From Chrysophaeum taylorii (lineage: Eukaryota; Sar; Pelagophyceae; Pelagomonadales; Pelagomonadaceae), in contig JAQMWT010000262.1 of NCBI GenBank assembly GCA_029834535.1, forward strand, positions 42,070-106,069: a stretch of DNA of 64,000 nucleotides, read 5' to 3'. How positions within the stretch are numbered: position 1 is the first letter of the stretch; every line of letters starts with the position of its first letter. A model generated the notes under the pieces. The model saw nothing but the letters and a program-made list of their open reading frames with translations. It was not told the DNA's origin and did no database searches. The position numbers and the translations under genes are program-made. Shown piece by piece: positions 15,501 through 57,177 of this stretch.

Positions 15501-16042
15501 TTGTCGATGTCGTTCAGTATCGCCAGAAACGCCTTGCCGTCGGCGAACGACTCGGTCAAATTGTTCACGGCCACGCGTTTTTGTGCCTTCTTTTTGCACC
15601 ACTTGAGAATCTTCCGCTTGACGGCCGCGAGGTCGTCCCCCGACTCGCCCAGCTCCTTCACCAGGTAAAACGCGATGATCGACCAAATCAGCCCCAACAC
15701 GGGCGTCGGCGTCCCGTCGACCACGTCCATCACACCGATGTTCTCCAGCTTGATGTCGGCCTCGGGAAAGAACTTGAATACGACGTTTTGGTTCGCGACC
15801 CGCTGGATACGCATCTTCCCGCTATTCAGCTTCCCGAACCGCTTCAGCGACTCCCCCGTCAGCACCTCCAGAAAGTTGTACAGCACGATCCCCGACTTGA
15901 GATCTTCGTACAAATCATCCACCTCGATCCCGCGGCACTTGAGCTTCGAATTCATGTACCGTGTGAACGTCCGCTTCTGCAGCACCTGCCAGTGCTGCTC
16001 TTCGCCAGCTTTCTTCCCGGTCCGCGGTGACAACGCGTCCAT
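12569..16042 (-). CDS. Tandem CH actin-binding / inactive M20-peptidase fold / CAP-domain protein
   Basis: A 1,157-residue protein from Met 16042; the 20 residues before it look like leader read-through. Residues about 17-125 and 135-240 are two calponin-homology domains of the spectrin/alpha-actinin actin-binding type (DLKSGIVLYNFLEVLTGE; TESFADGKAFLAILNDID). Residues about 250-690 follow the M20 dipeptidase order (VLVYASTAVDD, ARGAKADKS, VVGGAETPDE, YGCRGWLE, DPALALASKLASLRNP), but the metal His/Asp/Glu positions are replaced, so it should be catalytically dead. Residues 700-890 are a linker with AENN repeats, a proline run and an Asp run. Residues about 895-1085 form a CAP/SCP domain (GHTGSDGSKPADRLSRHGRW, DDGMPSR, FAGGYG) in which a usual cavity His is Gln. 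No signal peptide is seen, although CAP proteins are usually secreted. Likely a cytoskeletal scaffold. Confidence 0.8.
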   Translation of the reverse strand: MDALSPRTGKKAGEEQHWQVLQKRTFTRYMNSKLKCRGIEVDDLYEDLKSGIVLYNFLEVLTGESLKRFGKLNSGKMRIQRVANQNVVFKFFPEADIKLENIGVMDVVDGTPTPVLGLIWSIIAFYLVKELGESGDDLAAVKRKILKWCKKKAQKRVAVNNLTESFADGKAFLAILNDIDNAGSPYKPSEDEPKENFRRAFGDAEDKYGLPQMLDPDDERLWQDEISMMTYLATMMDTLPDSVPQPDPASLVDAWLDKHDKELEDDLERLCACRSTPTDAEGRKAAKALVDEMLEKSGLETTPDGEYGIATWVVDPAAPTVLVYASTAVDDAPPAMFKPKRDGDRLRARGAKADKSNVIAPIYAARALKEVLTGGETSPFPPCNVRVVVGGAETPDEIPDAVVRGVDYVLVAESKKTALGAVGASAPAAALYGCRGWLETTIACSLSTTDRKVPVSSHVGPLLDPALALASKLASLRNPVDAAPSSETIAGLPSLSLDFVDFVEGPDETSARAVVTDVKKRVAYLESAATAPEFASTKPPLAALALEPALVVRKLWTETPAARHLPSRALATLRVALPPGYDDLESAAQKIETALAPAGFGFELERVGDLLGSPGYLSDSRQPMARVLTECLAPDSTTALSADPTFAPVATAFAARLPDAGVFQICGLPRDDDDDDSVAFSDVKNLTKHLAKVVNAASVPKRAPKISPYGVERMVEAAPVATDASAKKSSVIPMGPSSKPTPPPKAKKIDRAENNAENNAENNAENNTPPPPPPPPPPAPRQDDDDDDDDEGDKDAAAIAERQEYFSVPEAALEKQEQQQEENVDKSSPAARSAAAEPAADEPAAQEEETKEEAATTTTPPESAAAAAEMTPASPLGPSIPVVEDEIVASTSGPLTEEALVSELNKLRSDPNGFVPVLRESLTLYKDDKSFWPREAKAQPFMTHEGKAAVEEAISFLENSAFGTLRPLALHDGMSKAAAEHADDLVASGERLGHTGSDGSKPADRLSRHGRWFERASECLAYRHLSAPLLVAQLVVDDGMPSRTQRNTALSPDMRAVGAAIREHPSHGILAVLTFAGGYGPQPLDLETTVEASAAPPSADFKAVLDSIPVVAVHEQVEQALARGDKVELNYKPGALKMTIWNSADGAGSMYGVEWEK

Positions 16043-16754
16043 CTTCTTCTCGCCCTCCACACAAAAACTAAACAAAAGAAAGACAACTTTTCTTTCTTCC
16101 AATAAGGCGTCGACGCCTCGACCACCACCCGCTCGGTCTCGAGTCTTTTTTGTTCTCGACTAGCAGCGAAAGTAGAAAGGGGTAGGGACATTGGAGACTA
16201 GACCGGGGGAGAGTTAGGGGAAGCCATCGTGTCGACGACATGGAGGGGGCGTTCGGAGACTGCAGACGGTACATATGAGTCGATTCCAAGGGACCCGTAC
16301 TACAGGGAGGGAGGGAGGGAGGGAGGGAGGGCTTACACAGGGGTGATATAATCTCAAGAGGACAGAGAGAGAGGGGAGGGCCGTCGTCCTTCTCATGCCC
16401 CCGGACTTAGCAACCACGACTCCCCACGACGACGTGAGCATATAGCTGCGCGAGAATACCGCAACCGCTAGACTAAGGCACGGCACGCAAAGAAAGAAAG
16501 AGAGAGCCCCCCCCCGCCCATAAGCCGCCGCCAGAGTGGTCGAGTCAAGGAGGCTCGTGGTCGGGTTGGGAAAAGAGAAAGCGCGGTCGCCGCCGCCGCC
16601 GCTTCTGGATGGATAGACGGATCGAAAGGAGAACCGATTGTGTCGTCAGGGGAGAAACTTGAGCGTTGCGTGGGTGTTTTTGTCGTTGTTCCCTGAAAGA
16701 AAAAGAAATAAGGAAGGGGGGAAGTAAGACTCCGGGGCGCGCGATAGTAGTATA
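16043..16754. other. Intergenic with GGGA microsatellite
   Basis: Upstream region of the CH-domain gene and 3' flank of the VASt gene, both leftward. Contains a GGGA tandem repeat (about 16305-16331), AG-rich runs near 16490 and a TTTCTTTTGTTTAG tract (minus strand, about 16070) that could be an intron acceptor for a 5' UTR intron. No gene seen. Confidence 0.5.
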
Positions 16755-21525: not shown

Positions 21526-23858
21526 TCAGCGACGCGCGACGGCGGCGACGACGGCGACAACGAGGGCGAGCCAAAAAAGGCGCGGGGTAATCGAAAGTCG
21601 GGCGTCCTCCTTTTTGGCGGCGTCGGCAGTGAGGTCGAGGACGCGGGCGCAGGTGGTTCGGAGCTTGGCCTTGGTGTCCGGCGTGGCGCGCGAGGCGTCG
21701 ATATTGGCGGCAATGGCCGACACGGAACGGTGGAACCACGCCAGCGTGGCTTGGTGGCCGCGCCGGGTGTCGAGGATGAGGCGCGCCGTCAATCCCTTCC
21801 GGATCTTGACGACGCCGGTGAAGAGACGCGGGTCGTCGAAGAGCGCGGCTAGCGTGCAGATAGCCATGACCTGCAGGCACAGGAGTCAGTCAGCGCGATA
21901 TCTTATCAGAGCGACTTCACCTGGGGAATGGAGCAGAAGCGATAGATCTGGGGCGTGCGGCAACGACGGAGGTATTCGAGAGAATCCGGGACGAGGTCGA
22001 GGGCGTCGGCGACGAGGTCGTCGAGACAGGCGAGGGAGCGCGAGGAGGCGCCCTTGGCGAGGCACGAGTCGACGAGGGCGGGTTTGAAGATTCGCTCGCT
22101 CTCGCCGCCGCCGCGGGCGGTGGGCCGCGAGAACTCGCCGAGGTCGTCCGAGTTGGCATACTTTGTCCAGATCGAGCGCGGCCAGAAGGCGCGGCCGTCG
22201 ACGTAGTCCTCGAGGTAGTCGCGGATAATGTTCGTTTTCTGCAAGAAGAGTCCCATAGAGTTGGCGAGGCCGAGCCGGTTGTCGTTCTCGCAAAACGGCC
22301 AATCGAGTTCGCCCGAAGCTTCGAGGGTGTCGGCCTCGAAGCCTCGCGCGACGAAGATGCGCGTGAGGCCCTCGCCGACAAGGCCGGCGACCGCGTGGCA
22401 GTACGAATTGTACTCGGCGACGTCCTTGGTGCCCTGCGCGAGCTCGGCGGTCGCGGTGTCTGCCATGCCGGCGCCCATGTCGCGCGCAATGTCCGAGATG
22501 ACGACGCGCGAGGACTCGGGGAGCGTCCGGAAGACGCGGACGACCGCCCCAAACTTCTGGAGCAGCTTGCGCTCGTCGCCCTCGCCGATGCCGTCCACAG
22601 CACAGTCGGGGTCTCGGAGCTCGACCTCGAAGAACTCTCGGAGCCTCTTCTCCTTGGCGCGCGGGTTATCCTTCGAGTACTCCATGTCGTCCTCGATGGT
22701 GTCGAGCGCTCGGAGGACGAGGTAGAACACGCAGATATCCAGGCACACGCCAGCGGGGAGCTGCCGGATGACGGCCGCGAAGGACCTCGAGACCTTGCCG
22801 AGCATCTCGTCGCAGAACGCGACGTCGGGATCGGTCGACGCGAGGTTCGTCTCGAAGCCTACCGCCTTGAGCCACAGGGCGGCGACCACCTCGCGCGGCC
22901 TCAAAACCAGGTCCAGGAGCGACGACGACGGATGCGTCGCAACTTTGCCGTAGCCGCCTTGCTTCTTCCCCGCGTCGGCGGCGGCGGCGCCGGCGTCGCC
23001 CGATATCGCTCTCGTCGTCGTCGCGACGTCGGCGAGGAGTTGCTCGCGGTACGCGGCACCCGGCTCGCCGCCGTTCTCCGCGAGGGCGTCGAGAAAGGGC
23101 ATCGCCCCGCCCGAGCCGACGGGACCCTCCGTGTGGCAGTCGAAGCGGTGGATGCTCGCGTCGAACCACTCGCCCGCGCACAACGCGTCGACGTCCGACC
23201 ACCATTTCTTAAGAAACCGGTGGGCGATTATCTTGAACCACGGCGACCACTTTAGGCCCGGCTCCTCGAACTTTGCGAACAACTGATCGCACGTCACCCA
23301 CTCGTACGCCCGGACCTCGTCGGGGTGCGGCTCGATCGCCAGCGGCTCCGTCGCCTTACAAACGAGCACGTAGTCGATCTCGTGCTCGCCCCACGGCGCT
23401 TCGGGCCCGTGTGTTCCCACGTCGCACGCCCAGTAGTGCACGCGCGTCACGAACGTAAACTGCGAGGCCTCGAGCGTCTTGATACCGAGCTCGTGGTCCA
23501 GCTTTCGCACGGCCGCGTTTTTTACGCCCTTTGGGTCGCCGCTCGCGACCGCCCCCGCGTCGTCGACCTCTGACTTGGCCATACCGTACAAAGGGTGAGA
23601 GCAGCACGTGTTCGTCCAGACGTCCGCGAAAGTGATCTTCGACGACGCGCGCTGCTGGAGCAGCAGCCGCCCGGCGCCGTCGAAGAGCAACACGCTGAAC
23701 GCACGATGCAACAACCCCTTGGGTTGCCCCACGACAAACTTATGAGCGTTGTACTTGTTCTCGTGACCAATCACCTCGTCCTTGAAGTTCACGAGCAACA
23801 CCTCGTCCTTCAGCATCAAGTCGTCCTGGCTCGCGCCCTCCGCCGACCACGTCGCCAT
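21526..23858 (-). CDS. IDI-SQS: Isopentenyl-diphosphate isomerase / squalene synthase fusion
   Basis: One chain of about 760 residues joining two sterol-pathway enzymes. The N-terminal part is a type 1 IPP isomerase of the Nudix fold: WTNTCCSHPLYG with the catalytic Cys, the Nudix-box-like AAVRKLDHELGI, and WGEHEIDYVL. The C-terminal part is squalene synthase, condensing two farnesyl diphosphates with NADPH: ALDTIEDDMEYSKDN (first Asp-rich motif), then NIIRDYLEDYVDGRAFWP (second). Exon 1 is 23858-21921, a 50-nt GT-AG intron follows, and exon 2 (21870-21526) begins VMAICTLAALFDDPRLFTGVVKIRKG, the conserved SQS C-terminal region, ending in a hydrophobic ER anchor (FWLALVVAVVAAVA). Such fusions have been reported from diatoms and related algae, so this supports the lineage guess. 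Confidence 0.95.
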
Positions 23859-24185: not shown

Positions 24186-26177
24186 ATGCTCGCCAGCTGT
24201 GGCGCTCGTCGGAGCGGGTCAGGGAACGTGGTGAAGACGTGGCGGGTGAACGCCGGGCAGATCTCCTCGTATGGCGAGGTGTCGGTGTCCGAGAGCGCCG
24301 TGCGGTGCGTTCGCGTCGGGTCGAACGGCGATGCCATCACGTGCTGCGGCGACGCCGGGCAGGTCGCGATGGTGTCGGTTTCGGACAACGGAGATCACGA
24401 CGTGTCGTCGAAGCTCGTCGACGAGGAAACGAAAGGTCCGTTGCTGAGCTGCGACATCGACAGCACGGGGAGGCTCGCGTGCGGGTGCGGGGACGCGCGG
24501 CAAGTGCTCGTGTGGGACGTCCGGCGGCGGAAGATCGTGCGGCGGCTCGAGCACGAGATGATGCTGACGAGCGTGCGGTTCGAGGCGACCGGCGCGTGCG
24601 TCGCCTCGGGCGACATCAACGGCGGCATCGAGTTGTACTCGGTCAAGACGAAACGTCGCCTCGCGGCGCTCAAGGGCGTCTACGCCTCGGAAGTCTCGAT
24701 AATGGACTTCTCGCCGACGCGCCCGCACGTCCTCTGCGCGCTCCACACGGACGGCGTCGTCGGGGTCTGGGACGCGGCCCGGGCGACGGCGACGACGCGC
24801 CTCCGCTCGCAAACCGACAAGGCCCTCGCCGCCGCCGGTCTCGCCTTTTCCCCCATCAACCAAAAGTTCCTCGCCACGGGCCGCGCCGATGGCAACCTCA
24901 CCTTCTGGGACATCGATGCGGCTCGCTCCGTCAAGACCATCGACTGCGGCTCGCCGACCACGGCCGTCGCCTTCCTCACCGAGCGGATCGTCGTCGTCGG
25001 CCTCCGCTCGGGCGACCTCACCACCTACGACCTCCGCAACACCTCCAACCCCATGAACATCAACGCGGCCCACGTCGGCGCCGTCGAGTCGATCCACTTC
25101 GTCGACGTCGAGGTCTCCCGCCAGAGCGACTCCGACGAGGACGACTATCAGTTGGACGCGCGCCCGACCGACCAGCTCTTCGCCAATCGACCTACCGAGG
25201 GCATCTTCAGCCGCCCCAACTTCTCGGAGCGTCCCAAGTCCGAGCGCCGCCTGACCGACTCGGAGCGTTCGGGCCGACCATCGAGCGAGCCCGTCCGCAA
25301 ACAGACCGAAAAAAAGCAGTCGCCGCCGCCGCCGCCGCCGCCGCCTCCGGAGGACGACCGGGCGCGACCTCCTCGCGGTAATCGCGCGCCGCCGGAGGCC
25401 GACCTCGTTCCCATGGCCAAGCCGCGAGCCGCGGACCAACGACAAGACAAAACCCAGCAGCGAGAACAGCAACGCCATCAGCGCCTCAAGGAAACGCAAC
25501 AGCGCCATCGCCAACATCATCAACACCAAGACGAAGAGAAACGCCGCGAACCGCCGCAGTACCAAGAGCCCCCGCAGTACCAGTCTCAAGAGCCGCCGCA
25601 GTACCACGAGCCCCCGCAGTATCACTCTCAGGAGCCTCCGCAGGGTTATCACGACCCTCCGCAGGGTTATCAGGACCCTCCGCAGTATCACGCTCGCGAG
25701 GCCGCGCCGACGTCGCCCTCCCTCGGTACCGTGCTCGAGGAAAATAAGGAACTCAAAAAAGGCGCCCCGTCGGCTGCACGGCCGCAGGAACAGCAGCAAA
25801 CCAAGACGAGACAGCCGCCGCCGCGGTCGCGCCACCCGAATTCGAGAGGAACATCGGATGAGCAAGAGCAGCAAGAACACGAGTACGTGCCCAGGGAACC
25901 GACGCGAGCGCCGAGCGTCGCTTCGACCGGCGATGATGCCGCCACCATTCGCGAGACTGTCGCCACCGCCACCGAAGACATCTGCGCTGAAATACAGAAT
26001 CTTCACCTCGACGTGATTCGCCAGTTCCAGATTCAGCACAATGACATCGCCTCTATCGTTGAAAAATTTGCCTCCAATTTTACTGATATTGTTGAAGAGA
26101 ACGACCGCCTCCGATCTGAGAACCGCCGTCTGCGAGATACCATCACCGATCTCGGTGGCGTCCCTCCCGACAACTAG
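24186..26177 (+). CDS. NEDD1: NEDD1-like gamma-tubulin recruiting WD40 protein
   Basis: About 663 residues. Residues 1-320 form a WD40 propeller (for example LSCDIDSTGRLACGCGDARQVLVWDVRRRK, FLATGRADGNLTFWDID). The middle is low complexity: a proline run, then Gln/Arg/His-rich sequence and tandem EPPQYQ/EPPQYH/DPPQGYQ repeats (25545-25695). The last 60 residues (DICAEIQNLHLDVIRQFQIQ through VEENDRLRSENRRLRDTI) match the NEDD1 C-terminal helix that binds the gamma-tubulin ring complex. Expected role: bringing gamma-tubulin to centrosomes or basal bodies and spindles. No introns needed. Confidence 0.85.
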   Translation: MLASCGARRSGSGNVVKTWRVNAGQISSYGEVSVSESAVRCVRVGSNGDAITCCGDAGQVAMVSVSDNGDHDVSSKLVDEETKGPLLSCDIDSTGRLACGCGDARQVLVWDVRRRKIVRRLEHEMMLTSVRFEATGACVASGDINGGIELYSVKTKRRLAALKGVYASEVSIMDFSPTRPHVLCALHTDGVVGVWDAARATATTRLRSQTDKALAAAGLAFSPINQKFLATGRADGNLTFWDIDAARSVKTIDCGSPTTAVAFLTERIVVVGLRSGDLTTYDLRNTSNPMNINAAHVGAVESIHFVDVEVSRQSDSDEDDYQLDARPTDQLFANRPTEGIFSRPNFSERPKSERRLTDSERSGRPSSEPVRKQTEKKQSPPPPPPPPPEDDRARPPRGNRAPPEADLVPMAKPRAADQRQDKTQQREQQRHQRLKETQQRHRQHHQHQDEEKRREPPQYQEPPQYQSQEPPQYHEPPQYHSQEPPQGYHDPPQGYQDPPQYHAREAAPTSPSLGTVLEENKELKKGAPSAARPQEQQQTKTRQPPPRSRHPNSRGTSDEQEQQEHEYVPREPTRAPSVASTGDDAATIRETVATATEDICAEIQNLHLDVIRQFQIQHNDIASIVEKFASNFTDIVEENDRLRSENRRLRDTITDLGGVPPDN

Positions 26178-42826: not shown

Positions 42827-43039
42827 CGAGGGAGGTCTGTGCTCGGCATGCGCTACGAGTCGATAGTAATAAAGAAAACGAGACCTGATGGTGATGATGT
42901 CAACGCCTGACAGGACAGAGGCCCCGGCCCTGACTGAGGAGCGTGAGAAAAAAATGAGTTTTTTTTTGTTTTGTTTCTTTTTCACCGCCGGCGCCGCCGC
43001 CGCCGCCGCCGCCGCCGCTCTTGCAGCAACAACAAAAAA

Positions 43040-44509
43040 ATGAAGCGCGCAAAAAGCTCACCTCTGCAGGAGGATTCGCTGTACGGGGCGATGATGCCTC
43101 GGCGGCTGCAAATGTTGGACGAGGAAAGGCCGCAGGACGACGAGGGGCGCACAGATTACCAGAAGCAAAACGAACGCGGGCGACGCGAAGAGGTCCCAAC
43201 GGCGCGAATCGTGACGATCAACTGCCGGAAGTCGATGAAACTGCCCGAGCGACGGGCAGCGAAGACTGCACCGTCATCGAGCGTCCTCTCGCGACGTCGC
43301 GGCCCTCCGCGTTCCAAGTTGTTCAACTTGCTCCACGGAAAGGGTTCTCGAGGCAAGGCGTTCAACCGCGGTCTCGCGGCGTTGATCGTCGCGAACACTT
43401 TCGCCGACATCCTTATCACGGTGCCCGAGTTCGAGGCGACCTGGGGCCGCACGTTCAACGTCTTCGAGAGCGTCTCGTCGTTGCTTTTTTTGGCCGAGTA
43501 CGTCGCGCGGTTCGCGGTCGCCGGCGAGCGCGACAAGTTCCGAGGAGCGCTCGGCCGTTTGCGATACGCGCTCTCGCCGACGGCCCTGGTCGACCTCGCC
43601 TCCTTTCTCCCGTGGGTCGTCGAGATCGTGCTCGCGCTCGCCCACGCGGGCGCCCCGCTCCCCGCGACGGCGTTAGTCCGCGTCTTCCGCATGCTCCGCA
43701 TTCTCAAAACCGAACGCTTCGTCGGCTCGGTCGACGCGATCTGGCGCGTCGTCTGGATGAACTCCTCCATCTTGTGTGTCGGAAGCATGATGGCGCTCAT
43801 GCTGCTGATATTTACCAGCACGATGCTCTACTACGCCAACCGAAAGTCGGGAGATCCAACCTTCGCGTCCATTCCGGCGACCATGTACCTCTCCATCCTC
43901 ATGTTGACCGGCCAGGGCGAGCCCGAAGGCGAACTCACGGTCCTCACCAAGTTTTTGTGTGCTTTTACGGCTATATTCTCCGTCGGCATGGTCGCCATCC
44001 CGGCCTCCATGTTGACCTTTGGCTTTGAGATTGAAGCGACCAGACTGGCGAAGAAACGCCGCGAGGCCCGCCTCCGTCGACGACTCCGCTTCGAACTCAA
44101 AGACGACCTCCTCATACCCACGAGCTCCTCAGACTCGGACTCGGACCACGACGCCAAGCAAAAACGACGCCGCGATCGCCGCCAGGCGCGACGCGACCGG
44201 AAACGACCTTCCTCAAACCGCCGCCTCGACCTCTGCTGCCCGCACTGCGCCTGCTGCTGGCGCCAGCCGGTCCACCTACCGTCCTACGATGACGACGACG
44301 ACGACGGCCGAGGAGGAGGAGGAGGATTTGTCGACGCCTGGAAAATTGACAAGGACGAGGAGGAGGACGGCTTCCTCGCCGAGCTCGACTCCTCCGAGGA
44401 AGAGTACGAGGAACTCATCCTCGGGAAAACCTTAGACGATGCCTACCAGGACGTGAAGAAAGAGATCCTCAACGAGTGCCGCGCATCGACCGACGCATCC
44501 GCCACGTAG
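43040..44509 (+). CDS. One-domain six-TM voltage-gated cation channel with atypical filter
   Basis: About 489 residues from ATG 43040; upstream frame would encode a poly-Arg run from a CCG repeat and is rejected. S1-S4 are visible, with an S4 carrying positives every third residue (LVRVFRMLRILKTERF, near 43674). S5, a pore loop and S6 follow. The pore reads MYLSILMLTGQGEPEG (near 43885-43930): the K+ signature TVGYG is absent, replaced by TGQG, so ion selectivity is uncertain. The C-terminus is cytosolic, basic then strongly acidic (poly-Asp near 44290), with a Cys cluster (LDLCCPHCACCW) that could bind metal or be lipidated. Family: voltage-gated ion channel superfamily. Confidence 0.82.
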   Translation: MKRAKSSPLQEDSLYGAMMPRRLQMLDEERPQDDEGRTDYQKQNERGRREEVPTARIVTINCRKSMKLPERRAAKTAPSSSVLSRRRGPPRSKLFNLLHGKGSRGKAFNRGLAALIVANTFADILITVPEFEATWGRTFNVFESVSSLLFLAEYVARFAVAGERDKFRGALGRLRYALSPTALVDLASFLPWVVEIVLALAHAGAPLPATALVRVFRMLRILKTERFVGSVDAIWRVVWMNSSILCVGSMMALMLLIFTSTMLYYANRKSGDPTFASIPATMYLSILMLTGQGEPEGELTVLTKFLCAFTAIFSVGMVAIPASMLTFGFEIEATRLAKKRREARLRRRLRFELKDDLLIPTSSSDSDSDHDAKQKRRRDRRQARRDRKRPSSNRRLDLCCPHCACCWRQPVHLPSYDDDDDDGRGGGGGFVDAWKIDKDEEEDGFLAELDSSEEEYEELILGKTLDDAYQDVKKEILNECRASTDASAT

Positions 44510-46496: not shown

Positions 46497-47065
46497 GTGG
46501 TGCGCATACGCTGCCTTTATAAAAAAGGTGCTTGGGTATCGCACGGATATAGACGCGAGTTGAGGCGCTCGGCGAAACGCATGTGTTGTTGTTGCTGCTG
46601 TTGTTGTTGTTGTTGCGGTTGTTCAGAACGAAGATGGTGCGTTTGCCGCGCGCGTCGCGAGGCGAGGCGAGGCGATGCTGGGTCCCGCTACTGCTTCCGC
46701 TACTGAAACTATGGCTTCTGGATGCTCGCACGATCGGGGGGCTCATCACGGCGGCGGGACGAAACAGACACGAGATTTTGACCTCGGAGGCGCGACCACT
46801 CTGCGAGGCGACGGCCCGCCTCGTCCAATGGTGCCCAAGCGCCCTGTGGTTCTCATGACACGCGAGAGGCTAGCAGTATGGTCTCGGCAGGGGCGCAACG
46901 CGGCGCGTCGCCCGACACGGATCACGTAGTGCGCATCGACCAGCACATGGTTGATGGTCCAGTGCGCTCGAGCTTCGCACACAAGGACGTCGACGGCATG
47001 CGAGAATGGACTCGTCGCGTGCGATCGGCAGAGGTCCAACGAGTCTCGGGGATAAGGCCCTTCGC

Positions 47066-47134
47066 AATAGGCGAGGGTAGGAATGCCGGTCCTGGTGTGC
47101 GCGAGTGCCCGGGGCTACATATACCCCTGTGCTT
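47066..47134 (+). repeat. Direct repeat, copy 1 (partner 47436-47504)
   Basis: Begins AATAGGCGAGGGTAGGAATG; the two 69-nt copies differ at only three bases and are spaced 370 nt apart. Looser similarity extends beyond, so this may be a decayed tandem duplication. Confidence 0.9.
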
Positions 47135-47435
47135 CCCCATCATAGTGAAACGTGAACATCTGGGGCGATTCAAGCATGTATGCGAGACGGTGGGGACCCA
47201 GCAGACGACGACGCCATCTGCTTAAGATGAACAACACCTGCGTCGGAGATGAACATCCGGTCCTGGTAAGTGAGAGCGCCCAGATGAGGGGGGTCTAGTG
47301 TGTGTGCTAGACGATGGGGCTCCAGCAGTTGGCGACGGCAACTGCTTCGAAGACACTCACACACTCCTTGCGGCGCAGCGGTGGGGCGGATTCGAACGCG
47401 CGAACCACCTCGAGCGCTTTAAAGGGCACATAACC

Positions 47436-47504
47436 AATAGGCGAGGGTAGGAATGCCGGTCCTGGTGTTAGCGAGTGCCCGGGGCTACACATACCCCTGT
47501 GCTT
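47436..47504 (+). repeat. Direct repeat, copy 2 (partner 47066-47134)
   Basis: Second copy of the 69-nt unit starting AATAGGCGAGGGTAGGAATG. Confidence 0.9.
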
Positions 47505-47691
47505 CGCGATAAAAGCCACGTATGGTGCGTGAAGGATGTGGGTGGTTTTGTGGGGTAGTCTGTTTATCTTTAAATGTCGACTGTTTGTCTTTAAATGTCG
47601 ACTGCTAAGAGGGGTGTGTGTGGGGAGCATGAAGGATGTGGGTGGGTGTGTGGGGTAGGTCTCTACTAGGAGGGTCTGTTTGTCCTTAAAT

Positions 47692-47959
47692 TAGGGTCGG
47701 ATAAGAAAACGAGACTAGCCCGCGCCGCAACGACGGGTCCTACAACGCGTGGGCTTTTTCCTTTTTTTGCGTGAGGGGACGAAAGGATGCCGACTCCACT
47801 ATGGGGACTAGTTCCATCGCGACGATCTCGCGGCGTGGCGGCACATACTGCTTGAGTACAAATGAACATAGCTCAGCGATCCGTTGTCGGCGTTGAGTAT
47901 GTCTTAGTACAAACTGAAACATAGTTAACGGCTCGTACGAACTTTCTTATCCGACCCTA
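47692..47959. mobile_element. MITE with 17-bp terminal inverted repeats and 7-bp target duplication
   Basis: 268-nt element starting TAGGGTCGGATAAGAAA and ending with its exact complement TTTCTTATCCGACCCTA. It is flanked on both sides by CTTAAAT (47685-47691 and 47960-47966), a perfect 7-bp target-site duplication. The host sequence is a TTTAAATG..GACTGCTAAGAGG repeat also present uninterrupted at about 47590, so the insertion can be read directly. No transposase inside: a non-autonomous DNA transposon. Confidence 0.9.
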
Positions 47960-48325
47960 CTTAAATGTTGACTGCTAAGAGGGGGGTGTGTGTGGGGTCT
48001 GTTTGTCCCCCGATTCAGGCAGGGTAAAGATCAGGTAGCGCGCGACCAGATGAACTTACTGGGATTAGGTGAACTTGCAGGGGTTAGAGATTGGGACTAG
48101 GTGAACTTACTGGCCTGCACTTGTCGTCCATTAAAATCCTATTGGTATACTTTTGTACGTTCGGAGAGTCAGATGAGCTGAAATGAAGTGAATCGGGAAG
48201 CGTAACACGAAAGCCTAGTGAAGAAAATAGCTGTTCTATATTGGAGGGGGGGTAGCAACGGGGTGTGCAAGCAAACAATAACGCGAGGTGTTCGCGGCTT
48301 GTGGCAACGTCTATAAGCGCGGTGT

Positions 48326-51300
48326 TCACTGGGTGTCGTCTTCGTATTCCCCTTCTTCGTCTTCCTCTTCCTCGTCGCCGATCTCATCGTAGTCATCCTC
48401 GTAGTCTTCATCCTCGTCGCCCACCTCCTCGTAGTCTTCCTCGTCGTCCTCGTAGTCCTCTTCTTCGTCGTACTCACCCTCGTCCTCGTCGAATTCTTCG
48501 TCGAATTCGTCCTCGCCGGCAACGTCGGCAAAGTCGTCGTCCAGCTGCTCGTCGTCGGGCTCGCCTGCGAGGTCTTCTTCTTCCTTTTCTTCCTCTTTGA
48601 AGTCCGACGGCTCGTCGGCCTCCTTGGCTTTCTTCGAGGGTTTCATGAGCGGCTTGGTAGGGTAGTAGTGGTGGAGAATCTGCGCTAGGAAGTGGCGAGG
48701 TTTGACCTTGGAGAGGTCGACGACGGAGAAGAAGGGCGGCTTCTCGATCACCTCGACCTCGAGCTTCTCCATCGAAACGGCGCTGCTCGATTGTTGGGAT
48801 TCGACGATCTCGTGATATTTTTCAGCCCTGTGCAGTAGAATACGTCCGTCGGTATCTGCAGTAGCGAGGAAGTCCCCGGCGACGGTGATACAGGTCACGG
48901 GCGCGCGGTGCGAGACGTACGACATGATGAGATGTTGCTCGTCGGCGCCGCCAACAGCGAGGGTTCCGGCCGCTTGGACGGCATGGACGACACTCTGGGT
49001 TGGTCGTTGCCACGCAACGATCGAGAGATCGCGCGAACACGAGAAGAAGAGGTATCCCGCCATGCAAAATCCGGAGATGGCCTGCGTGTGGCAGCTCATG
49101 CGGTACATGACCTCGAGGCGAACGATCTGGGTGAGGATCGCCGCGGTCCGCGAGCGCTCGGGACCCGACCTGGCTTGGGCTTTGCTGAGATTCTTGAAGG
49201 AGAGGCCCTCTCGCTCGAGCTCCTTGGCCGTCGCCTCGAGCGTGGCCAGGTCCTCGTCACCGCGCACCACGCGAAGAACCACAATACGGCCCGTCGCGCC
49301 GCCGCAGTAGACGCGGCGGTAGGCGTAGCACATCGCCGTAATGGGCTCGTGGTCGTCGAAAACGGGGTGGTCGTACTTGGGCCGCCAGACCGCGCCCTGG
49401 AGCCACTGGGAGTTCAGCGAGAATGGAAGCAGGCTCAGCGACCCACTGTCGAGGCCGACCATCGCGTGCCAACCGTAATGGTCCATCTCGTGGCGGGTGC
49501 GCCCCGTGTTGAGGACACACATGGAGACGCACCGTTGCGTGAGGGCGATGGTGGCGCTCTGCTGGGCATCGCTCGACCGGAGTCGCCACATCTTGATGCT
49601 CCCGTCGTCGGAGACGGAGAAGACGAACCGGCTTGAGATTGTCAGCGCGTTGATCTGTGCCGTGTGGCCAATCATAACAGACTCGCGATTAAACCTGATC
49701 CCTTTTTGTCCGCGCGTCTTCTTAACTCGCACGAAGCTCTTGATATTGTTTCCCGAGGACGCATAGAACCGCCGTCCGTCGCTCGTCATCGCCACAACGA
49801 GCACGCGCTCCGTCTCGTCAATCACCTGTGCTTTGAAGTATTGCGACGTGCTCCAGGGGTCTTCCTCCGCCTTAGTGTCGGCGTGGTGGTGGTGGTGGTG
49901 GTGGTGCGTTTCGTCGGCGTTAACCTGCCTGCGCAATTTCCAGACCGTGATGGTGTTGCCGCCGTGCGCCGATACCATCAAGTCGCCGGCCTTCGACGTG
50001 GCCATGTCGCTCACGACCCGGCCGCCCGCGGCATTTTTTTTGTCGACCTTGCTACTCTTGCCGTGGTGGTGCGGCGGCGCCGCTGGGAGCGTGCCGCAGT
50101 GAACGATCGAGTGGGCGAGCCACGCCTTGCGGACGTGCTCTTTGCGTTCGTTGGTGATCTTCTGGAGGAGGACGCCAAGGAAGGCGATGTGGCGATGGAG
50201 CCGAGGCCGGCGCTCCTGGAGCGCATTGAGCGCGCCCTTGGCGGCAAGGGTGTCAAGGACGGCGAGCTGGGTCTGTGCTGCGGCCTTTTCCTCGCTTACT
50301 ACTTTCACCAGGAGCTCGCACTCGGAAAAGCTCTCCTGGTCGAACTTGCTGAGTTTGATCTGGGTTTGCCAGCGATGGGTCTCGAGTGTGAGCGCCTGTC
50401 GCATGCGGTAGCGGAACACGTCGGGGCAGAGGCGCTGCATGAGCGACATGTCATGGACGGCAGGCTCGGCGCGCTGGGCGGCCGGGGCGCTCGACGACTG
50501 CCGGTGCTGCGCGTCGCAGAAGCGATGGACGGCGAGCCGGAGGATGTCGAGCTTAGCCTGGGCGAACTCGCGTTTCGTGGTGAATACGTCGTCGTCGGGG
50601 AGCGCCTGAAGCTCTGCGAAGATGACGACGCGGTGGACAGCCTTGATGACGGCAGAGAACTCGAGGTAGCGCGGCAGGAGGCTCGACCGCGCGGGCTCGA
50701 GTTGCGACGGGTTGTGCCGGGGGTGTCCGGGCTGGTGCGAGCCGACGAGGTTATATTCGATCTCCTTCCAGCGCGCGTCGAGGTCGGGCTCGCCGTTTTC
50801 GATCTCGCTCTCTAGTAGGAGTGGGATGGCCATCAAGATACGCTTGGCGTGGCGGTCAGCGAGGAGCTGCGGGGCATCGCGCGTCATTCCGAGCGGAGGC
50901 GAGAGGAGGCGGAGGAGGCGCGAAAGATATTTGGTACGAATGCGCCCGACCCCAAACTCGTCAAACTGCTGCCACGCGCGGAGAAACTCTTCGACCTGCT
51001 GCATGGCGATCCACGGCTGTACGGGCGACGTCGACTCGTATTTGTAGATGAAGATCATCGTGCAGACATTGAGGAAGACATATCGAACGATCAGCACATG
51101 GAGAAGCCAGAAGATGACGTTGGGCCCTTTCTCCATCGGTGCGAGCTCGCGCTCGAAGTGATCCTTGATCGAAATCCAGTTGTTGGCCGTCGCGGCGATA
51201 AACAGCGTGTTCATCGACTTGTTGATCGTCCTGAACTTGAGCCGCGTCAAGAACCAGTGCGACCCAAATATCTCGGGGTCGTCGGCGTCGTTGTGCTTGG

Positions 51301-54300
51301 ATATGTCAACTTCCCCCAAGAACATCATGCCCACCACCGCGAAAGCAAAAGTGGAGATGACCATGAGGAGGAGCATGGGGAGCGTCGTGCCGAGCGCCGC
51401 ATACAACGCGTAGACGATCGTCCTCAATTCAACAAATGCCGGGACCACCAAAAAGACCTGCGTCGTCCGGAGCGCGTAGATGAAGCGTTGCAAGGCCCCA
51501 CCATCGCACGTGTGCGGGTCGTTCTCGTCGCTGTCGTCGTCGCAGCCGCGGTTGATGTCAATCTCTCGAAGACGGTTCCACGTTCCGGAGAGCTCGAGAC
51601 CCAAAAAGACAATGATGGGGATGTGGAGGATGACGCGCGCTTGCTCGGTGACTAGGGCGAGCATCGTGAACCACCCAAATGTCGAGAGCTTAAGGATGCA
51701 CTCGGCAATAAGCAAGCCGCAAAAGTAATGGTCGGCAGTGCGGAGCGCGCGTAGCGCGGGCGTGAGCCCGTCGTCACGAATACTGTTCCGTTGCGCGTCG
51801 CGCGGCACCAAACGGGCCTGCGAGCCGACGAAAATCCACCAGACCAACACGTCGCCAAAAATAAGGATCGCATAGACAAACTTGTAGTAGCGGTGGCGAA
51901 ACATGAAATACAAATTGCGCAAAACCACGTTGGTCGAGTTAGGGTTCTGCGGTTCCTGGAGCGCCTTAATGCAGTCAAGTTTCAGCTCGTAGACGCGCCA
52001 TTGGATGTCTTTCAATGATGCGAGCCGCTTCTTTTTCTTGCTGTGCTGCGTGACGAGCATGCGGTACGTGAAGGTGCCGTAGATGACTCCGACGAAGAGC
52101 GTGGTGAGCAGGAACGACGAACAGCCAGCAATGAAAAAAAAGATGCTCGGGAGTGTCGTGCTCGCCTCGGCTTGGTGATTGAGGTAGGCGCCCGTAGTTT
52201 TCGCGTTCATCGTAGCGAGGATCAATTTATGCCAGTCGTCAAAAGAAAACACGAGGAAGGCCGACTTGAAGGCTTCGTAGAGGTTGTCAAAGTTGTAGCG
52301 CGACCGCTTGATTCGAAAAGTTCCGACCGCGTCGACGATCCGATCGTTGCGATTGTACTGCTCGTACTCGATCGGAAAGAAGAGTTTGCATCCGCGCGAA
52401 TTGTTGGCCGCGCGGTGGGGCGGAAACGTGACTTGGCTTTCGAAGCGTTCGTTGACGTAGGTGAATTGTTCGTCGGGCCAGTTGTCATACGCCGACGAGC
52501 CCTTGTCGAAGCGCAGTCGATCAGGTTTGAACGCCTTGAGGAGACCGCCCTCGGGGTAGCGCGACGCCGAACAGTAGAAGAGGCGACCCTGGAAGAGCTG
52601 GAGCCCGCACACGGCGATCGTCAACCACAAGAATAGCGCGAGCATGCCGACGGCGAAAACGCCTTTGGCCGAGCTCTCAAGCGCCGACAGGATCGACATG
52701 ACGGCGGGTGAACGGCGCGCGAGCGTCTTGAGCGGACGAATGATCCGAACGACGCGGGCGACGGCGAACGGACTCAACGGTGTGTGGAAGACCGAGATCA
52801 CCGAGAGCGCGGTGACGGTCGCGTCGAGCATGTTCATGGGGTTGCTGAGGTACCCCAAGAGCGTCTCGGCTATCGTCATGATGATGAACTCGCTCACGAA
52901 GATTGCGACGCAAAGGCCCTGAATGGCGCGAAGCGTCGGTCGAGACTCTTGCACCTGGATAAAACTCGTGCGGCGCGACGAGTTGCGAATCTGGTAAAAC
53001 GTCGCGAGCAAAATGATGGATGTCATGATCGTCGCGAATATCAAGTTGGCGAAGATCGCAGAGTGGCCGATACGGAGCATCGTCTTGCGGAACCGGCCAA
53101 GCGGCGTCGGTTTCAGATTGCCATCTTTGTCGATTTCGAGCGCGGGATCGGGGAAAATAAAATAGGATTTGGGGTTCTCGAGCAATCTTTGCCAGCGCGT
53201 CTTGGGCGGCGCTGGGGGTGCCATGAGCGTTACCTGGCCGATCGCGCTGTGCTTGCCGAGGTCAACCTGATCGCGCGCCTTGCTGAACGAGTACCACTTG
53301 AAAAAATAGTAGCGATAGATCGAGTTCATCATCGCGTGCTCGAACTTGAAGACGCTAAGCATCGTCGTCCGAACGCGCTGTTTGATGACGGCGATCGAAT
53401 CACGCTCGACTTCTTCGAAGATGATGGCGGTGAGCATCGACAGGATGGCGTACCGGCCGATTACAATGAGGACGATAAAAAAGATGCACGCGACGCTGCC
53501 CGACCTCCGCATCGTGTTGTACATAATGGTGTTCCACTCGTCCCCCGTGATGACGATGAAGTTTGTGATGAAGGCGAGGGGAAACGTGTCGAAGTTGAGG
53601 CGACCTTTTTCTCGCCACTGGCCCGAGTAGTCGTTGAGCGAATAAACTTCGTTTCCAAAGATTTGCATCGAGATGATCGACGCCGTGTAGAGTACGAGAA
53701 ACAGAAGGCCCAAGATGTTGAAGATCCAGGTGCTCGAAAGCGAGATGATGCTCATGAGCCGAAAAAAGTCGAGATCGCCCGAAGCGTTGGCGTCGGCGGC
53801 GTGGATTTTGGATATGCCGGCGAGGCGGAAGACGCGAGCGACGCGCGTCACGCGCACGATCCGCAGCAAGCTGAACACCGAACTCCGTTCAGAAAAGGTC
53901 CCGGCGATGTCGACAATGCCCAGGATGCCGAGTATGAAGTCGATCTTGTTGTAATTGTCGCGGATATAGGCGACCGGGCCCAGCGCGATGTTTTTGACGA
54001 GGATTTCCACGCCAAAGATGATGACGAAGATAAAGTTCATCGTGTCGAACGCGAGATTCAAGCGTCGGTCCATCGGATTGCTCGAATGGAGTCGATATTG
54101 CGATAGGATGACGACATTCACAATGATGCAGACGTAGATAAATATGTTAAAGGGGCCGGCCTCGGCGTTGACGATGCGGCGAAGCGTCTCGAAAAACTGG
54201 CCCCGCGGGACGAGCGGCACGTCGTCGAGCGGTTCGACCTCCTGGATGAGGGGCCGGGGTTCGTTGGTGGGCGTGCCAGTGGTCTTCCCGTGCTGCGCGG

Positions 54301-56173
54301 AGAGGTACCCGCGAACCCTGGCGACCTCCTCCTCTTCTGCCGCCAAAATATCGATCATGTGCTCCTCGAACTGTGTCATCGACAGCAGGTCGGCACCCAT
54401 GAACGCGAGCTTGGCGTCGAGCGCGTTGCGATTCTCCTCCTCGCGAATTGCCTTTCGGAGGTTAAAGGACATGACGGCGGGAAACAAATTGAGCAGGCAA
54501 ACATTGACGATGGCGATGACGGCGTAGAAGAACGGCCAAAGATAACGACCGACGCTCATCTGGATCGACCACATGGCGTCGTTCCAGTTTTCCATGTTCA
54601 TCACGTCGAAGATGGCGAGGAGCGACCAGAGCGACTTGTCGAACTGGTGGTACCACAAGTATCTGCGCCGCCGCGGCAGCGCGCGCCCCAAGATGCCGAA
54701 GCGTCTTTCGCCGGTCTTGCCCGCGTACGTGCGTCGGCAAGATTTGGCATTGACCCTCTCGTCGTCCGTGAAGATATTTGGCAAGAGCTCGTTGAGCCGC
54801 GCAAACGCGTCCTTTGCCTTGCGACGGTCGTTTTCGCAGTTCTTTAGTCGGAACAGCAGCTTCTCGATTTCGAACTGCGGTTCGCTCAGGTCAAACCGCG
54901 ACGTGAACCTCGTGAGGACTTGCCAGCCGAGGTCGAGGTACGTCTGGTCGGGCGACGAGACCTCGGCGTACTGAGGTCCGATGTCCTCCGTCGTGGAGTT
55001 TCTCGTGATGAATTCCGCCGTCGAACCTTTTTTGGTATCGACGCAGTACTCGCGAATGTACATCACGTTTGGCAAGTTTGCCCTCGCCAGATACACTGAG
55101 CCGTTGTAGGGGACGGGCGCGCCACGAAGCTGCAAGGGCGCCGTCACCAACGACACGACGCCCCCGACGGGGTCAAGCTCCGTGATCTGCGTCGCCGGGA
55201 TGTCGTCGCCGTGAAATCCCGCCCTGATGCGATCTGGGTGGCCGTATCTGCGGAAAAAATCTCCCTCGATCGTCAGCTCGCAGTCGTCCTCTGGGTTGTC
55301 GCTGTAACACTTGTCGCACCGCCGGCACGTCTTGCAACCTCCGCAGAAGCTCGCGAAATACGGAAACGTTGCGCTGTACGGCGCGCCGTCGCGCGCGTAA
55401 TCTCGGTACATCGCCGCCGACTTCCAAAAATTCGTTGCCAGGAATCGGTTCTGCCGTCGTCGCGCATCTTGGTCATCGCGAATCTTGTCTTCGTATCCGG
55501 CGTATTCCTCGCGCGACGCCCAGTACGTGGGACTCGGGACGTCGATCGTCGCCGGACCGGCGCTCGAGTTGAAGACCGAAGGATTCGCTGCGAAGGTTCC
55601 CGAAAACGGATCGTAGTAAGGGTCGGGCAGACACCGGAAATCGAGGCTGTCGCGAAAGTATACCGACGCAAAAGTTGACATCACAAAGATTGCCATGGCA
55701 GTCAAGACGGTGATCGCTAACAACAAACTGAACGAGCCAAACAGCGACGTCACGAGCAGCCGCATCTCTGGAAATTTTCGGAGCGACTTTAACGGCCGGA
55801 GGATGCGGACCATCCTCAGCGCCGAGATGTCGCCGAGGGGGATTGAAATGTGATTGCTCTCGTTTGGGCATTCGGAGAATATGGCGATGACGCCCTGACA
55901 TACGACGATAAAGTCCAGCAAGTTCCAACTGTCTTGAAAGTACGCGAACTGGTACGCGCCAAATTTTATGAGGAACTCCAGCAAAAAGATCAAATTGAGC
56001 ACGAAGTCGGCCTGGCAAAAAAAATCCGTCGGCCTGTCGCCCCGGCTTATCATCTTCGGTGGAAAGGCCATCACCACGCAATTGAATCCGATGGCCACCA
56101 GCACAAAGGCGTCGAGCCCGTTGCTGTCGGCGAGCTGCCGCAACCTCGACTTACGGCGCCGGCGGCGCAACAT
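48326..56173 (-). CDS. Four-domain voltage-gated cation channel fused to WD40 region and acidic tail
   Basis: Single exon, 2,615 residues from Met 56173 (the frame is open to 56488). Four repeats of six TM helices at about residues 20-580, 675-925, 1038-1375 and 1420-1715, as in Cav/Nav/NALCN channels. S4 helices: ALRMVRILRPLKSLRKF (I), LLRIVRVTRVARVFRL (II), ARVVRIIRPLKTLARR (III); repeat IV is charge-poor (FIYALRTTQVFLVVPAF). Pore loops MNMENW, TGDEW, SFDDW and TANNW put E528, D878, D1312 and N1664 in the filter, neither EEEE nor DEKA. Repeat I has a very long outer loop (175-505) with a CGGCKTCRRCDKC cluster. An EF-hand/pre-IQ-like helix follows repeat IV (QFDEFGVGRIRTKYLSRLL). Residues about 2050-2455 are WD40 repeats (VSDDGSIKMWRLR; CSRDLSIVAWQRP). 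The last 100 residues are mostly Glu/Asp/Tyr. Confidence 0.92.
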   Translation of the reverse strand: MLRRRRRKSRLRQLADSNGLDAFVLVAIGFNCVVMAFPPKMISRGDRPTDFFCQADFVLNLIFLLEFLIKFGAYQFAYFQDSWNLLDFIVVCQGVIAIFSECPNESNHISIPLGDISALRMVRILRPLKSLRKFPEMRLLVTSLFGSFSLLLAITVLTAMAIFVMSTFASVYFRDSLDFRCLPDPYYDPFSGTFAANPSVFNSSAGPATIDVPSPTYWASREEYAGYEDKIRDDQDARRRQNRFLATNFWKSAAMYRDYARDGAPYSATFPYFASFCGGCKTCRRCDKCYSDNPEDDCELTIEGDFFRRYGHPDRIRAGFHGDDIPATQITELDPVGGVVSLVTAPLQLRGAPVPYNGSVYLARANLPNVMYIREYCVDTKKGSTAEFITRNSTTEDIGPQYAEVSSPDQTYLDLGWQVLTRFTSRFDLSEPQFEIEKLLFRLKNCENDRRKAKDAFARLNELLPNIFTDDERVNAKSCRRTYAGKTGERRFGILGRALPRRRRYLWYHQFDKSLWSLLAIFDVMNMENWNDAMWSIQMSVGRYLWPFFYAVIAIVNVCLLNLFPAVMSFNLRKAIREEENRNALDAKLAFMGADLLSMTQFEEHMIDILAAEEEEVARVRGYLSAQHGKTTGTPTNEPRPLIQEVEPLDDVPLVPRGQFFETLRRIVNAEAGPFNIFIYVCIIVNVVILSQYRLHSSNPMDRRLNLAFDTMNFIFVIIFGVEILVKNIALGPVAYIRDNYNKIDFILGILGIVDIAGTFSERSSVFSLLRIVRVTRVARVFRLAGISKIHAADANASGDLDFFRLMSIISLSSTWIFNILGLLFLVLYTASIISMQIFGNEVYSLNDYSGQWREKGRLNFDTFPLAFITNFIVITGDEWNTIMYNTMRRSGSVACIFFIVLIVIGRYAILSMLTAIIFEEVERDSIAVIKQRVRTTMLSVFKFEHAMMNSIYRYYFFKWYSFSKARDQVDLGKHSAIGQVTLMAPPAPPKTRWQRLLENPKSYFIFPDPALEIDKDGNLKPTPLGRFRKTMLRIGHSAIFANLIFATIMTSIILLATFYQIRNSSRRTSFIQVQESRPTLRAIQGLCVAIFVSEFIIMTIAETLLGYLSNPMNMLDATVTALSVISVFHTPLSPFAVARVVRIIRPLKTLARRSPAVMSILSALESSAKGVFAVGMLALFLWLTIAVCGLQLFQGRLFYCSASRYPEGGLLKAFKPDRLRFDKGSSAYDNWPDEQFTYVNERFESQVTFPPHRAANNSRGCKLFFPIEYEQYNRNDRIVDAVGTFRIKRSRYNFDNLYEAFKSAFLVFSFDDWHKLILATMNAKTTGAYLNHQAEASTTLPSIFFFIAGCSSFLLTTLFVGVIYGTFTYRMLVTQHSKKKKRLASLKDIQWRVYELKLDCIKALQEPQNPNSTNVVLRNLYFMFRHRYYKFVYAILIFGDVLVWWIFVGSQARLVPRDAQRNSIRDDGLTPALRALRTADHYFCGLLIAECILKLSTFGWFTMLALVTEQARVILHIPIIVFLGLELSGTWNRLREIDINRGCDDDSDENDPHTCDGGALQRFIYALRTTQVFLVVPAFVELRTIVYALYAALGTTLPMLLLMVISTFAFAVVGMMFLGEVDISKHNDADDPEIFGSHWFLTRLKFRTINKSMNTLFIAATANNWISIKDHFERELAPMEKGPNVIFWLLHVLIVRYVFLNVCTMIFIYKYESTSPVQPWIAMQQVEEFLRAWQQFDEFGVGRIRTKYLSRLLRLLSPPLGMTRDAPQLLADRHAKRILMAIPLLLESEIENGEPDLDARWKEIEYNLVGSHQPGHPRHNPSQLEPARSSLLPRYLEFSAVIKAVHRVVIFAELQALPDDDVFTTKREFAQAKLDILRLAVHRFCDAQHRQSSSAPAAQRAEPAVHDMSLMQRLCPDVFRYRMRQALTLETHRWQTQIKLSKFDQESFSECELLVKVVSEEKAAAQTQLAVLDTLAAKGALNALQERRPRLHRHIAFLGVLLQKITNERKEHVRKAWLAHSIVHCGTLPAAPPHHHGKSSKVDKKNAAGGRVVSDMATSKAGDLMVSAHGGNTITVWKLRRQVNADETHHHHHHHHADTKAEEDPWSTSQYFKAQVIDETERVLVVAMTSDGRRFYASSGNNIKSFVRVKKTRGQKGIRFNRESVMIGHTAQINALTISSRFVFSVSDDGSIKMWRLRSSDAQQSATIALTQRCVSMCVLNTGRTRHEMDHYGWHAMVGLDSGSLSLLPFSLNSQWLQGAVWRPKYDHPVFDDHEPITAMCYAYRRVYCGGATGRIVVLRVVRGDEDLATLEATAKELEREGLSFKNLSKAQARSGPERSRTAAILTQIVRLEVMYRMSCHTQAISGFCMAGYLFFSCSRDLSIVAWQRPTQSVVHAVQAAGTLAVGGADEQHLIMSYVSHRAPVTCITVAGDFLATADTDGRILLHRAEKYHEIVESQQSSSAVSMEKLEVEVIEKPPFFSVVDLSKVKPRHFLAQILHHYYPTKPLMKPSKKAKEADEPSDFKEEEKEEEDLAGEPDDEQLDDDFADVAGEDEFDEEFDEDEGEYDEEEDYEDDEEDYEEVGDEDEDYEDDYDEIGDEEEEDEEGEYEDDTQ

Positions 56174-56367
56174 CTTCCTCTCTCTCCCTAGGTCCTCTGC
56201 GGGCTTGTTGTGCGCAGCATAGCACTTCTGCTGGTAGCCAGGTTTTTTTTCCGGTTGGTAGGAGGGGTCTAGGATCACAATCTCTTCGACGTGGCGAGTG
56301 ACCGTTGTGCTCCGATTGAAGGAGCCGTTGTCGGAGCTGGCGCACCACCAACCACGTCTCCGGTGGC
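56174..56367. promoter_or_regulatory. Divergent region, channel and START gene
   Basis: 194 bases between the preferred starts. The channel frame remains open through it, so a longer channel N-terminus is possible. Confidence 0.4.
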
Positions 56368-57177
56368 ATGGCGCTCCTCCTCCTCCTGACCGTTGGCAGC
56401 GCGGAGACGTTCTCGTTTCGTGGGATCGGGGAGCCGTGGCCAACACCCGGACGGTGGTTCTCGCAGACCGTGCGTCGTCACGCGACAACGCACCTCCACA
56501 AAACCCCCGGTGGCGCCCTCGCCGAGAACGTTGGCGACAAGCAGCTCGAGAGCGAAAAGTTGGTCCAAAGGGTCTTGAAGCTGGTCGACGACCGGTCGGG
56601 CCGGTGGCTTCCGATCGTAACCCGCGGACGATGTAAGGTGTGGCTCCTCAAAGAGCCGGACTCTCCGCACGCGTGCATTTTGGCCAAAGGCGTCATCGAC
56701 GCCTCCGCCCCCAAAGTCTACGACCTCTTTGCCAAGACCGAGCGCGCGGGCGAATTCAACGAGTACTGCGCGCAATGCGTCGACATCGAACGCCTCGACT
56801 ACAACACCAAGGTCTCGTGGTCGGTGACCAAGTCCTTCGGCAACGGCCTCTTCAAGCCGCGCGATTTCGTCACGCTCTGCCACTTCGCTAAACTCAGAGA
56901 TGGCTCCAAGTGTGTCGTCAATACGGCCACCACACATCGAGCCAAGCCCGAGAATCCGAGATTCCAGCGCGCCGAGGTCATCCTCGCTGCCAACATCGTC
57001 AAGCCCCTCGGCGCCGACAAAACGCACTTGACCTTGCTCACGTCGGTGAACCCCCGAGGCGCCCTCGACAATTGCGTCTGCGCTCGGATCATGAATCAGA
57101 TCATCAAGCGCTCGCCCGTCGCGTTCTTCAACTCGGTCGAACGCGCAGCGATGAAAACCCGCCTCGTCGAGGCCTAA
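56368..57177 (+). CDS. START-domain lipid-binding protein with signal peptide
   Basis: About 269 residues. Starts with a short hydrophobic leader (MALLLLLTVGSAETF), then a START/SRPBCC fold: WLLKEPDSPHACILAKGVIDASAPKVYDLFAK, AGEFNEYCAQCVDIERLDYNTKVSW, LFKPRDFVTLCHFAKLRDG, VILAANIVKPLGADKTHLTLLTSVNPRGALDNCVCARIMNQIIKRSPVAFF. The final amphipathic helix that caps the lipid pocket is present. The ligand is unknown; the leader suggests secretory or plastid routing. Confidence 0.8.
   Translation: MALLLLLTVGSAETFSFRGIGEPWPTPGRWFSQTVRRHATTHLHKTPGGALAENVGDKQLESEKLVQRVLKLVDDRSGRWLPIVTRGRCKVWLLKEPDSPHACILAKGVIDASAPKVYDLFAKTERAGEFNEYCAQCVDIERLDYNTKVSWSVTKSFGNGLFKPRDFVTLCHFAKLRDGSKCVVNTATTHRAKPENPRFQRAEVILAANIVKPLGADKTHLTLLTSVNPRGALDNCVCARIMNQIIKRSPVAFFNSVERAAMKTRLVEA

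Follow-up and report, generated by a model that had tools for sequence, protein, structure and literature searches.

The DNA analyzed here is a 64,000-nucleotide (nt) stretch of the pelagophyte Chrysophaeum taylorii (contig JAQMWT010000262.1, positions 42,070 to 106,069), hereafter the window, and its minus strand carries a gene whose reading frame leads from a four-domain cation channel into a WD40 region and an acidic tail. The frame (48326-56488) contains no internal stop codon, and its first ATG, at position 56173, gives a coding region of 48326..56173 (-) and 2615 amino acids (aa). A frame encoding a START domain begins ~195 bp from this ATG on the opposite strand, which makes the ATG a plausible start, and it is likely to be the start of the coding region. 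Residue numbers below are counted from position 56488; subtraction of 105 gives the numbering from the Met. The original prediction, made from the sequence alone, had claimed an unbroken frame leading from four transmembrane (TM) repeats through an EF-hand/pre-IQ segment and WD40 repeats to an acidic tail, and both the stop-free frame and the order of the Pfam domains bear this out. A hidden in-frame intron was considered and is ruled out in its strict form (GT[AG]AGT donor with a YAG acceptor 38-120 nt further on), since none was found in the coding region; looser forms were not searched. The predicted lack of introns in the 7.8-kb coding region thus stands for the strict form, but it is a weak clue, because other four-domain genes of the genome also sit in single long frames (2095, 2512, and 2672 aa) and the intronless state is therefore ordinary and not informative.

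Pfam Ion_trans (E 5.2e-113) matches five stretches of the protein, which correspond to four domains, domain I being interrupted by a large extracellular loop; the hydropathy peaks are in line with four domains. Domain I (54419..56137 (-), residues 118-690), delimited by Ion_trans pieces and alignment, contains the long Cys-containing loop and is ~250 residues longer in the alignment than its counterpart in a second gene of the genome, located on contig C391 and described below. Domain II (53387..54178 (-), residues 771-1034) is the best Ion_trans stretch and is followed by domain III (52049..53083 (-), residues 1136-1480; Ion_trans) and domain IV (51029..51889 (-), residues 1534-1820). The selectivity filters and voltage-sensing S4 segments were read from an alignment with the second gene and the genes on contigs C315, C138, and C344 (C578, whose frame is interrupted, was omitted), and the domain-I filter residue was assigned by motif. 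The filter residues are E633 of domain I (NMENW; 54590..54592 (-)), D983 of domain II (TGDEW; 53540..53542 (-)), D1417 of domain III (SFDDW; 52238..52240 (-)), and N1769 of domain IV (TANNW; 51182..51184 (-)), the last occupying a place where CaV2.1 has Glu; in domains II and III, the residue following the filter residue is also acidic. The resulting E/D/D/N filter, in which three of the four residues are acidic, occurs in both genes and aligns with E/E/E/E in C315, D/S/G/G in C138, and E/D/G/E in C344. The S4 segments of domains I-III carry regularly spaced Arg/Lys in both genes, and that of domain IV is poor in Arg/Lys and includes a proline common to both. The E/E/E/E gene on C315 has neither the E/D/D/N filter nor the charge-poor, proline-containing domain-IV S4. 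Calcium selectivity has been associated with an aspartate after the domain-II filter residue (PMC10120453); the acidic residue at this place, a Glu in the fusion gene and an Asp in its C391 counterpart, accords with Ca2+ permeability under that scheme. Charge-poor S4 segments and odd filters have been described among protist four-domain channels in a survey of 277 channels, which includes Paramecium channels with N/D/D/N or N/E/D/N filters of unknown selectivity (PMC5824947). Because such exceptions are described, a charge-poor domain-IV S4 is compatible with membership of the four-domain channels.

The EF-hand/pre-IQ segment (50804..51016 (-), residues 1825-1895), defined by Pfam, alignment, and a match in the PDB, contains a GPHH domain (the IQ-associated segment of CaV channels) at residues 1834-1880. 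In scans of the whole proteins, GPHH scores 24.2 bits in this gene and 21.7 bits in the second gene, below the Pfam cut-off of 26.8; in the genome search, the corresponding scores are 31.2 and 27.7 bits, above that cut-off. The segment leads into a linker (50024..50803 (-), residues 1896-2155; limits from the alignment), which includes a Leu/Glu/Arg-rich stretch directly before the WD40 part that, judged by eye, is probably helical. In a comparison of the whole protein with the PDB (best 60 of 121 matches), animal CaV and NaV structures are matched, with CaV3.2 best (E 9.9e-67) and NALCN far weaker (E 1.5e-9). Domain IV together with the EF-hand/PPLG segment has CaV2.3 as its best PDB match (E 3.2e-11). 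The CaV-like character proposed for the channel is thus upheld by both the pore region and the C-terminal EF-hand segment, which match CaV structures.

The WD40 region (48794..50023 (-), residues 2156-2565, limits by eye) has one strong repeat at 2271-2304, the others being weaker. The domain search places Pfam WD40 at residues 2271-2301 with E 4.4e-10 and 40.1 bits against a cut-off of 27, in agreement with the predicted WD40 domain. A single-repeat model scores above 0 bits at residues 2169-2186 (0.4) and 2274-2304 (12.2) in this gene, whereas the second gene has two fair repeats, at residues 1865-1896 (10.9) and 2059-2087 (8.3). The scan also covered the channel parts of both genes and the linker of this one, and nothing there scored above 0 bits; the same holds for 100 shuffled versions of the WD40 part of this gene. 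A profile built from the two genes matches 93 distinct PDB sequences at E <=1e-4 (best 60 of 93), and the top E-values belong to the designed propellers Tako8, Ika8, and Ika4 and to FBXW7 (1.9e-12). The clearest match in a single stretch is PWP2, for which 105 columns pass alone (whole-sequence E 6.9e-9). The length of the region, ~410 residues, and its spacing suit seven blades by eye, and patchwise, sub-cut-off matches to propeller-family models over residues 2227-2575 also fit; the region probably forms a complete, possibly closed propeller. It is followed by a conserved element (48644..48793 (-), residues 2566-2615), in which EVIEKPxFF...LSK...HYYP occurs in both genes, and by the acidic tail (48329..48643 (-), residues 2616-2720), in which 65 of the 105 residues are Asp or Glu (D/E). 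The composition of the final 80 residues was compared among 65 frames (stop-ended, >=400 aa) from both strands of the window and of loci L012-L037, a channel-rich sample that is not genome-wide and in which many frames are not genes: D/E account for a fraction of 0.675 here and 0.6875 in the second gene, and for no more than 0.325 in each of the remaining 63.

When the region following domain IV was used to search the genome (697 contigs, 70.8 Mb), a single place other than the gene itself matched at E <=0.01, on contig C391 (read as locus L012), where the match consists of one piece with 39% identity over query residues 108-774 (E 1.8e-100) and one with 63% identity over query residues 1-82, the EF-hand segment. 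Matches to the channel part adjoin these in four pieces. The start of domain I of this second gene lies upstream of a 50-nt GT-AG intron, and the remainder to the stop lies in one 2074-residue frame, so that a single exon covers everything that follows domain I. Its product comprises 2320 aa, 66 of the last 120 residues being D/E, and its parts stand in the same order throughout, down to an acidic tail. The two genes were compared in eleven segments, with aligned residues as denominators. Identity is 0.43 of 339 in domain I (of 595, the remainder being the loop absent from the second gene), 0.37 of 275 in domain II, 0.42 of 288 in domain III, 0.38 of 293 in domain IV, 0.73 of 71 in the EF-hand/pre-IQ segment, 0.34 of 125 in linker residues 1896-2020, 0.47 of 111 in the stretch before the join, 0.47 of 15 at the join, 0.37 of 358 in the WD40 part, 0.46 of 50 in the element that follows it, and 0.42 of 103 in the acidic tail, where it largely reflects composition. 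Ten of the eleven segments thus lie between 0.34 and 0.47, and the EF-hand/pre-IQ segment is the best conserved (73%). Third codon positions of the two genes agree at 0.36-0.55, with 0.36 expected from composition, and the nonsynonymous divergence (dN) is lower than the synonymous divergence (dS) in nine of the eleven segments. Judged from their sequences, the two genes are anciently diverged duplicates with the same build, and the fusion gene very probably encodes a four-domain channel, a WD40 region, and an acidic tail as one polypeptide.

On balance, we lean toward a mechanism in which the attached WD40 module docks partners or exerts regulation beside a Ca2+-permeable pore. Domains I-III would supply the voltage sensors that open a pore for Ca2+ or for a mixture of cations, with little contribution to voltage sensing from domain IV, and the EF-hand/pre-IQ segment and the linker would hold the WD40 region beside the pore, where it could dock partner proteins or act back on the channel from the cytosolic side. 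Since the WD40 region would be covalently attached, scaffold and channel would always be present in a 1:1 ratio. The acidic tail would sit where incoming Ca2+ peaks and may bind Ca2+ with low affinity or act electrostatically. It is also tempting to speculate, by analogy with the control of CaV2 by G-beta-gamma, that the WD40 region is a covalent beta-propeller regulator, an intramolecular counterpart of that control, which shifts between the EF-hand segment and a cytosolic partner while the tail senses local Ca2+, and that such proteins form a distinct family predating the duplication of the two genes; this more specific model is doubtful. The genome encodes the flagellar transport proteins IFT46 (E 1.5e-83) and IFT57 (E 7.6e-99) as well as G-alpha, and for this reason both a flagellar role and a G-protein role are possible for the fusion protein. 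The roles suggested in the original prediction, a propeller that tethers signaling or ciliary transport proteins and a tail that serves as a Ca2+ buffer or gate, are likewise no more than possible.

A number of observations weigh against the interpretation of the C-terminal part as a propeller that regulates a calcium channel. This gene has a single strong WD40 repeat, the Pfam WD40 score of the second gene (25.7) falls just under the cut-off of 27, and the propeller-family models, which match patchwise over residues 2227-2575 here, remain below their own cut-offs in both genes. The top PDB E-values sum one query repeat over many target repeats, and most of the matches listed include no single stretch that passes alone. 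The window also encodes an unrelated WD40 protein (24186-26177); comparing its profile with that of the WD40 part yielded no match and is uninformative. Neither gene has an IQ motif by the full or the loose pattern, although a degenerate site is possible, and classical calmodulin control is therefore doubtful. The fourth acidic filter residue is absent, and Ca2+ selectivity is consequently not assured. In linker residues 1896-2020, dN (0.71) is about equal to dS (0.68), so that this stretch alone shows no constraint, and dS is not computable for the acidic tail.

The linker values speak for the possibility that two neighboring genes have been joined by an error of assembly or frame, or that the WD40 part is unselected read-through, as do some short insertions close to the join that appear when this gene is aligned with the second. 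By contrast, the stretch immediately before the join is 0.47 identical over 111 residues with dN < dS, and the G+C content at third codon positions holds steady at 0.76-0.89 throughout residues 1801-2500. Furthermore, another contig carries a gene with ~40% identity whose parts, all in one exon once domain I has ended, follow the same order and finish in a similar acidic tail. An old duplication that keeps the same order of parts on two contigs argues that the join is not an assembly error, and the candidate of an assembly or frame join, which had been named as an outcome that would undo the original prediction, was rejected on the strength of this second, diverged gene. An artificial join is thus very unlikely, and joined genes and read-through taken together amount to an extremely improbable explanation. 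A protein that no longer works as a voltage-gated channel and serves as a membrane-anchored scaffold would account for the mostly uncharged domain-IV S4 and the Asn in the domain-IV filter, both of which are found in the two genes. It would leave aside the Arg/Lys spacing of S4 in domains I-III and the three acidic filter residues, which both genes have kept despite their deep divergence, and the charge-poor S4 segments and the Paramecium filters reported for other four-domain channels (PMC5824947) also speak against it; loss of channel function is thus improbable. A third explanation, possible but on the unlikely side, is that the WD40 part is a passive module that targets or anchors the channel, perhaps at the flagellar apparatus or the cytoskeleton, and leaves its gating unchanged. 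The IFT46 and IFT57 genes are in line with this explanation, as is the localization of CAV2, a CaV homolog of Chlamydomonas, to flagella (PMC11085791). On the other hand, no targeting signal or partner has been identified, nothing ties the gene specifically to flagella, and the position of the best-conserved segment, the EF-hand/pre-IQ (73%), next to the linker fits a coupling to gating at least equally well. Docking or regulation beside the pore remains the preferred reading.

Like the known four-domain channels, including the protist clades of PMC5824947, the fusion protein combines four Ion_trans domains in a single chain and has acidic residues in its filter, S4 segments with Arg/Lys in domains I-III, and a CaV-type EF-hand/GPHH segment. 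It differs from them in its C-terminal WD40 region and acidic tail, and E/D/D/N is not among the motifs named in the available portion of that survey. Among channels of solved structure, the animal CaV2 and CaV3 channels match it best in sequence, CaV3.2 over the entire protein and CaV2.3 and CaV2.1 over domain IV plus the EF-hand; unlike them, it has no IQ motif by pattern, a charge-poor domain-IV S4, Asn in place of the Glu of CaV2.1, and the WD40 extension. G-beta is a WD40 propeller that acts on CaV2. In that system, the propeller belongs to a separate subunit, and any relation of the fusion protein's WD40 region to G-beta would be hypothetical. The TRPM2 chanzyme, a member of a different channel family, likewise carries a cytosolic domain, NUDT9-H, in the channel chain (PMC11479946). 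A literature search on WD40 and channel terms, which had to co-occur and gave partial coverage, listed no paper that, judged by its title and the beginning of its abstract, deals with a WD40-fused four-domain channel, which is consistent with the earlier statement that no 24-TM channel with its own WD40 domain has been described. In the WD40 passages of PMC5068960, WD40 proteins and ion-transport-domain proteins are separate, and the domain-count tables of PMC9958989 are silent on whether one protein has both. The word "WD40" is absent from the main texts of PMC5824947, PMC11085791, and PMC7576140. No relatives were found by tblastn in viral contigs (600 and 79 pattern matches) or in bacterial and archaeal genomes (110), but these collections are non-eukaryotic and say little; NCBIfam, a prokaryote library, gave no family for either gene. 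The fusion protein belongs to the superfamily of four-domain channels, in which its C-terminal architecture is new without making it a machine of a new kind, and it is known from one genome.

With its 84 chlorophyll-binding matches, the genome is that of a photosynthetic eukaryote; a comparison of one light-harvesting protein gave its nearest matches among fucoxanthin-chlorophyll a/c proteins (best 60 of 161 matches), and the alga is hence probably an ochrophyte. On contigs C88 and C539, chlorophyll-binding genes are arrayed in tandem, and their match scores are the same or almost the same. The genome also has 114 Ion_trans matches, four-domain genes with EF-hand pairs among them, and the Pfam scans covered seven of the 14 genome stretches that were fetched, each by its longest frame. 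The genes on C138 (L013) and C344 (L014), with the odd filters D/S/G/G and E/D/G/E, encode further channels of the four-domain type, in which a pair of EF-hands lies after domain II and before domain III. On contig C390 (L016, 1310-9682 (+)), a 2790-residue frame has four stretches of Ion_trans together with Ion_trans_2 and a cyclic-nucleotide-binding domain, possibly as several units of the cyclic-nucleotide-binding type in one chain. A frame of at least 2915 residues on contig C24 (L017), cut by the end of the locus, has ankyrin repeats, cyclic-nucleotide-binding domains, EF-hands, and Ion_trans, and an IP3-receptor-like frame on contig C404 (L018) has RIH domains, Ion_trans, and a C2 domain at its C-terminus. 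Within the window, a frame with one Ion_trans domain (42971-44509 (+)) lies ~4 kb from the fusion gene, and the intergenic region downstream of that gene (47000-48130) contains short near-repeats, such as 47560-47604 and 48051-48087, and recurring phrases in its raw sequence. Another frame (21906-23858 (-)) joins NUDIX (residues 50-208) and squalene/phytoene synthase (354-646), both above the Pfam cut-off, in an unusual-looking fusion, and a 1177-residue frame (12569-16102 (-)) has calponin-homology domains and a CAP (cysteine-rich secretory) domain.

For the most part, calcium channels are connected with their signaling partners via separate adaptors. A WD40 module joined to the pore would be a natural experiment on the control of gating by partner proteins, and the protein offers a construct ready to be cut and swapped. 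The E/D/D/N filter and the silent-looking fourth sensor widen the known range of four-domain channels, and algae of this kind may be a place to seek channel architectures that are absent from animals.
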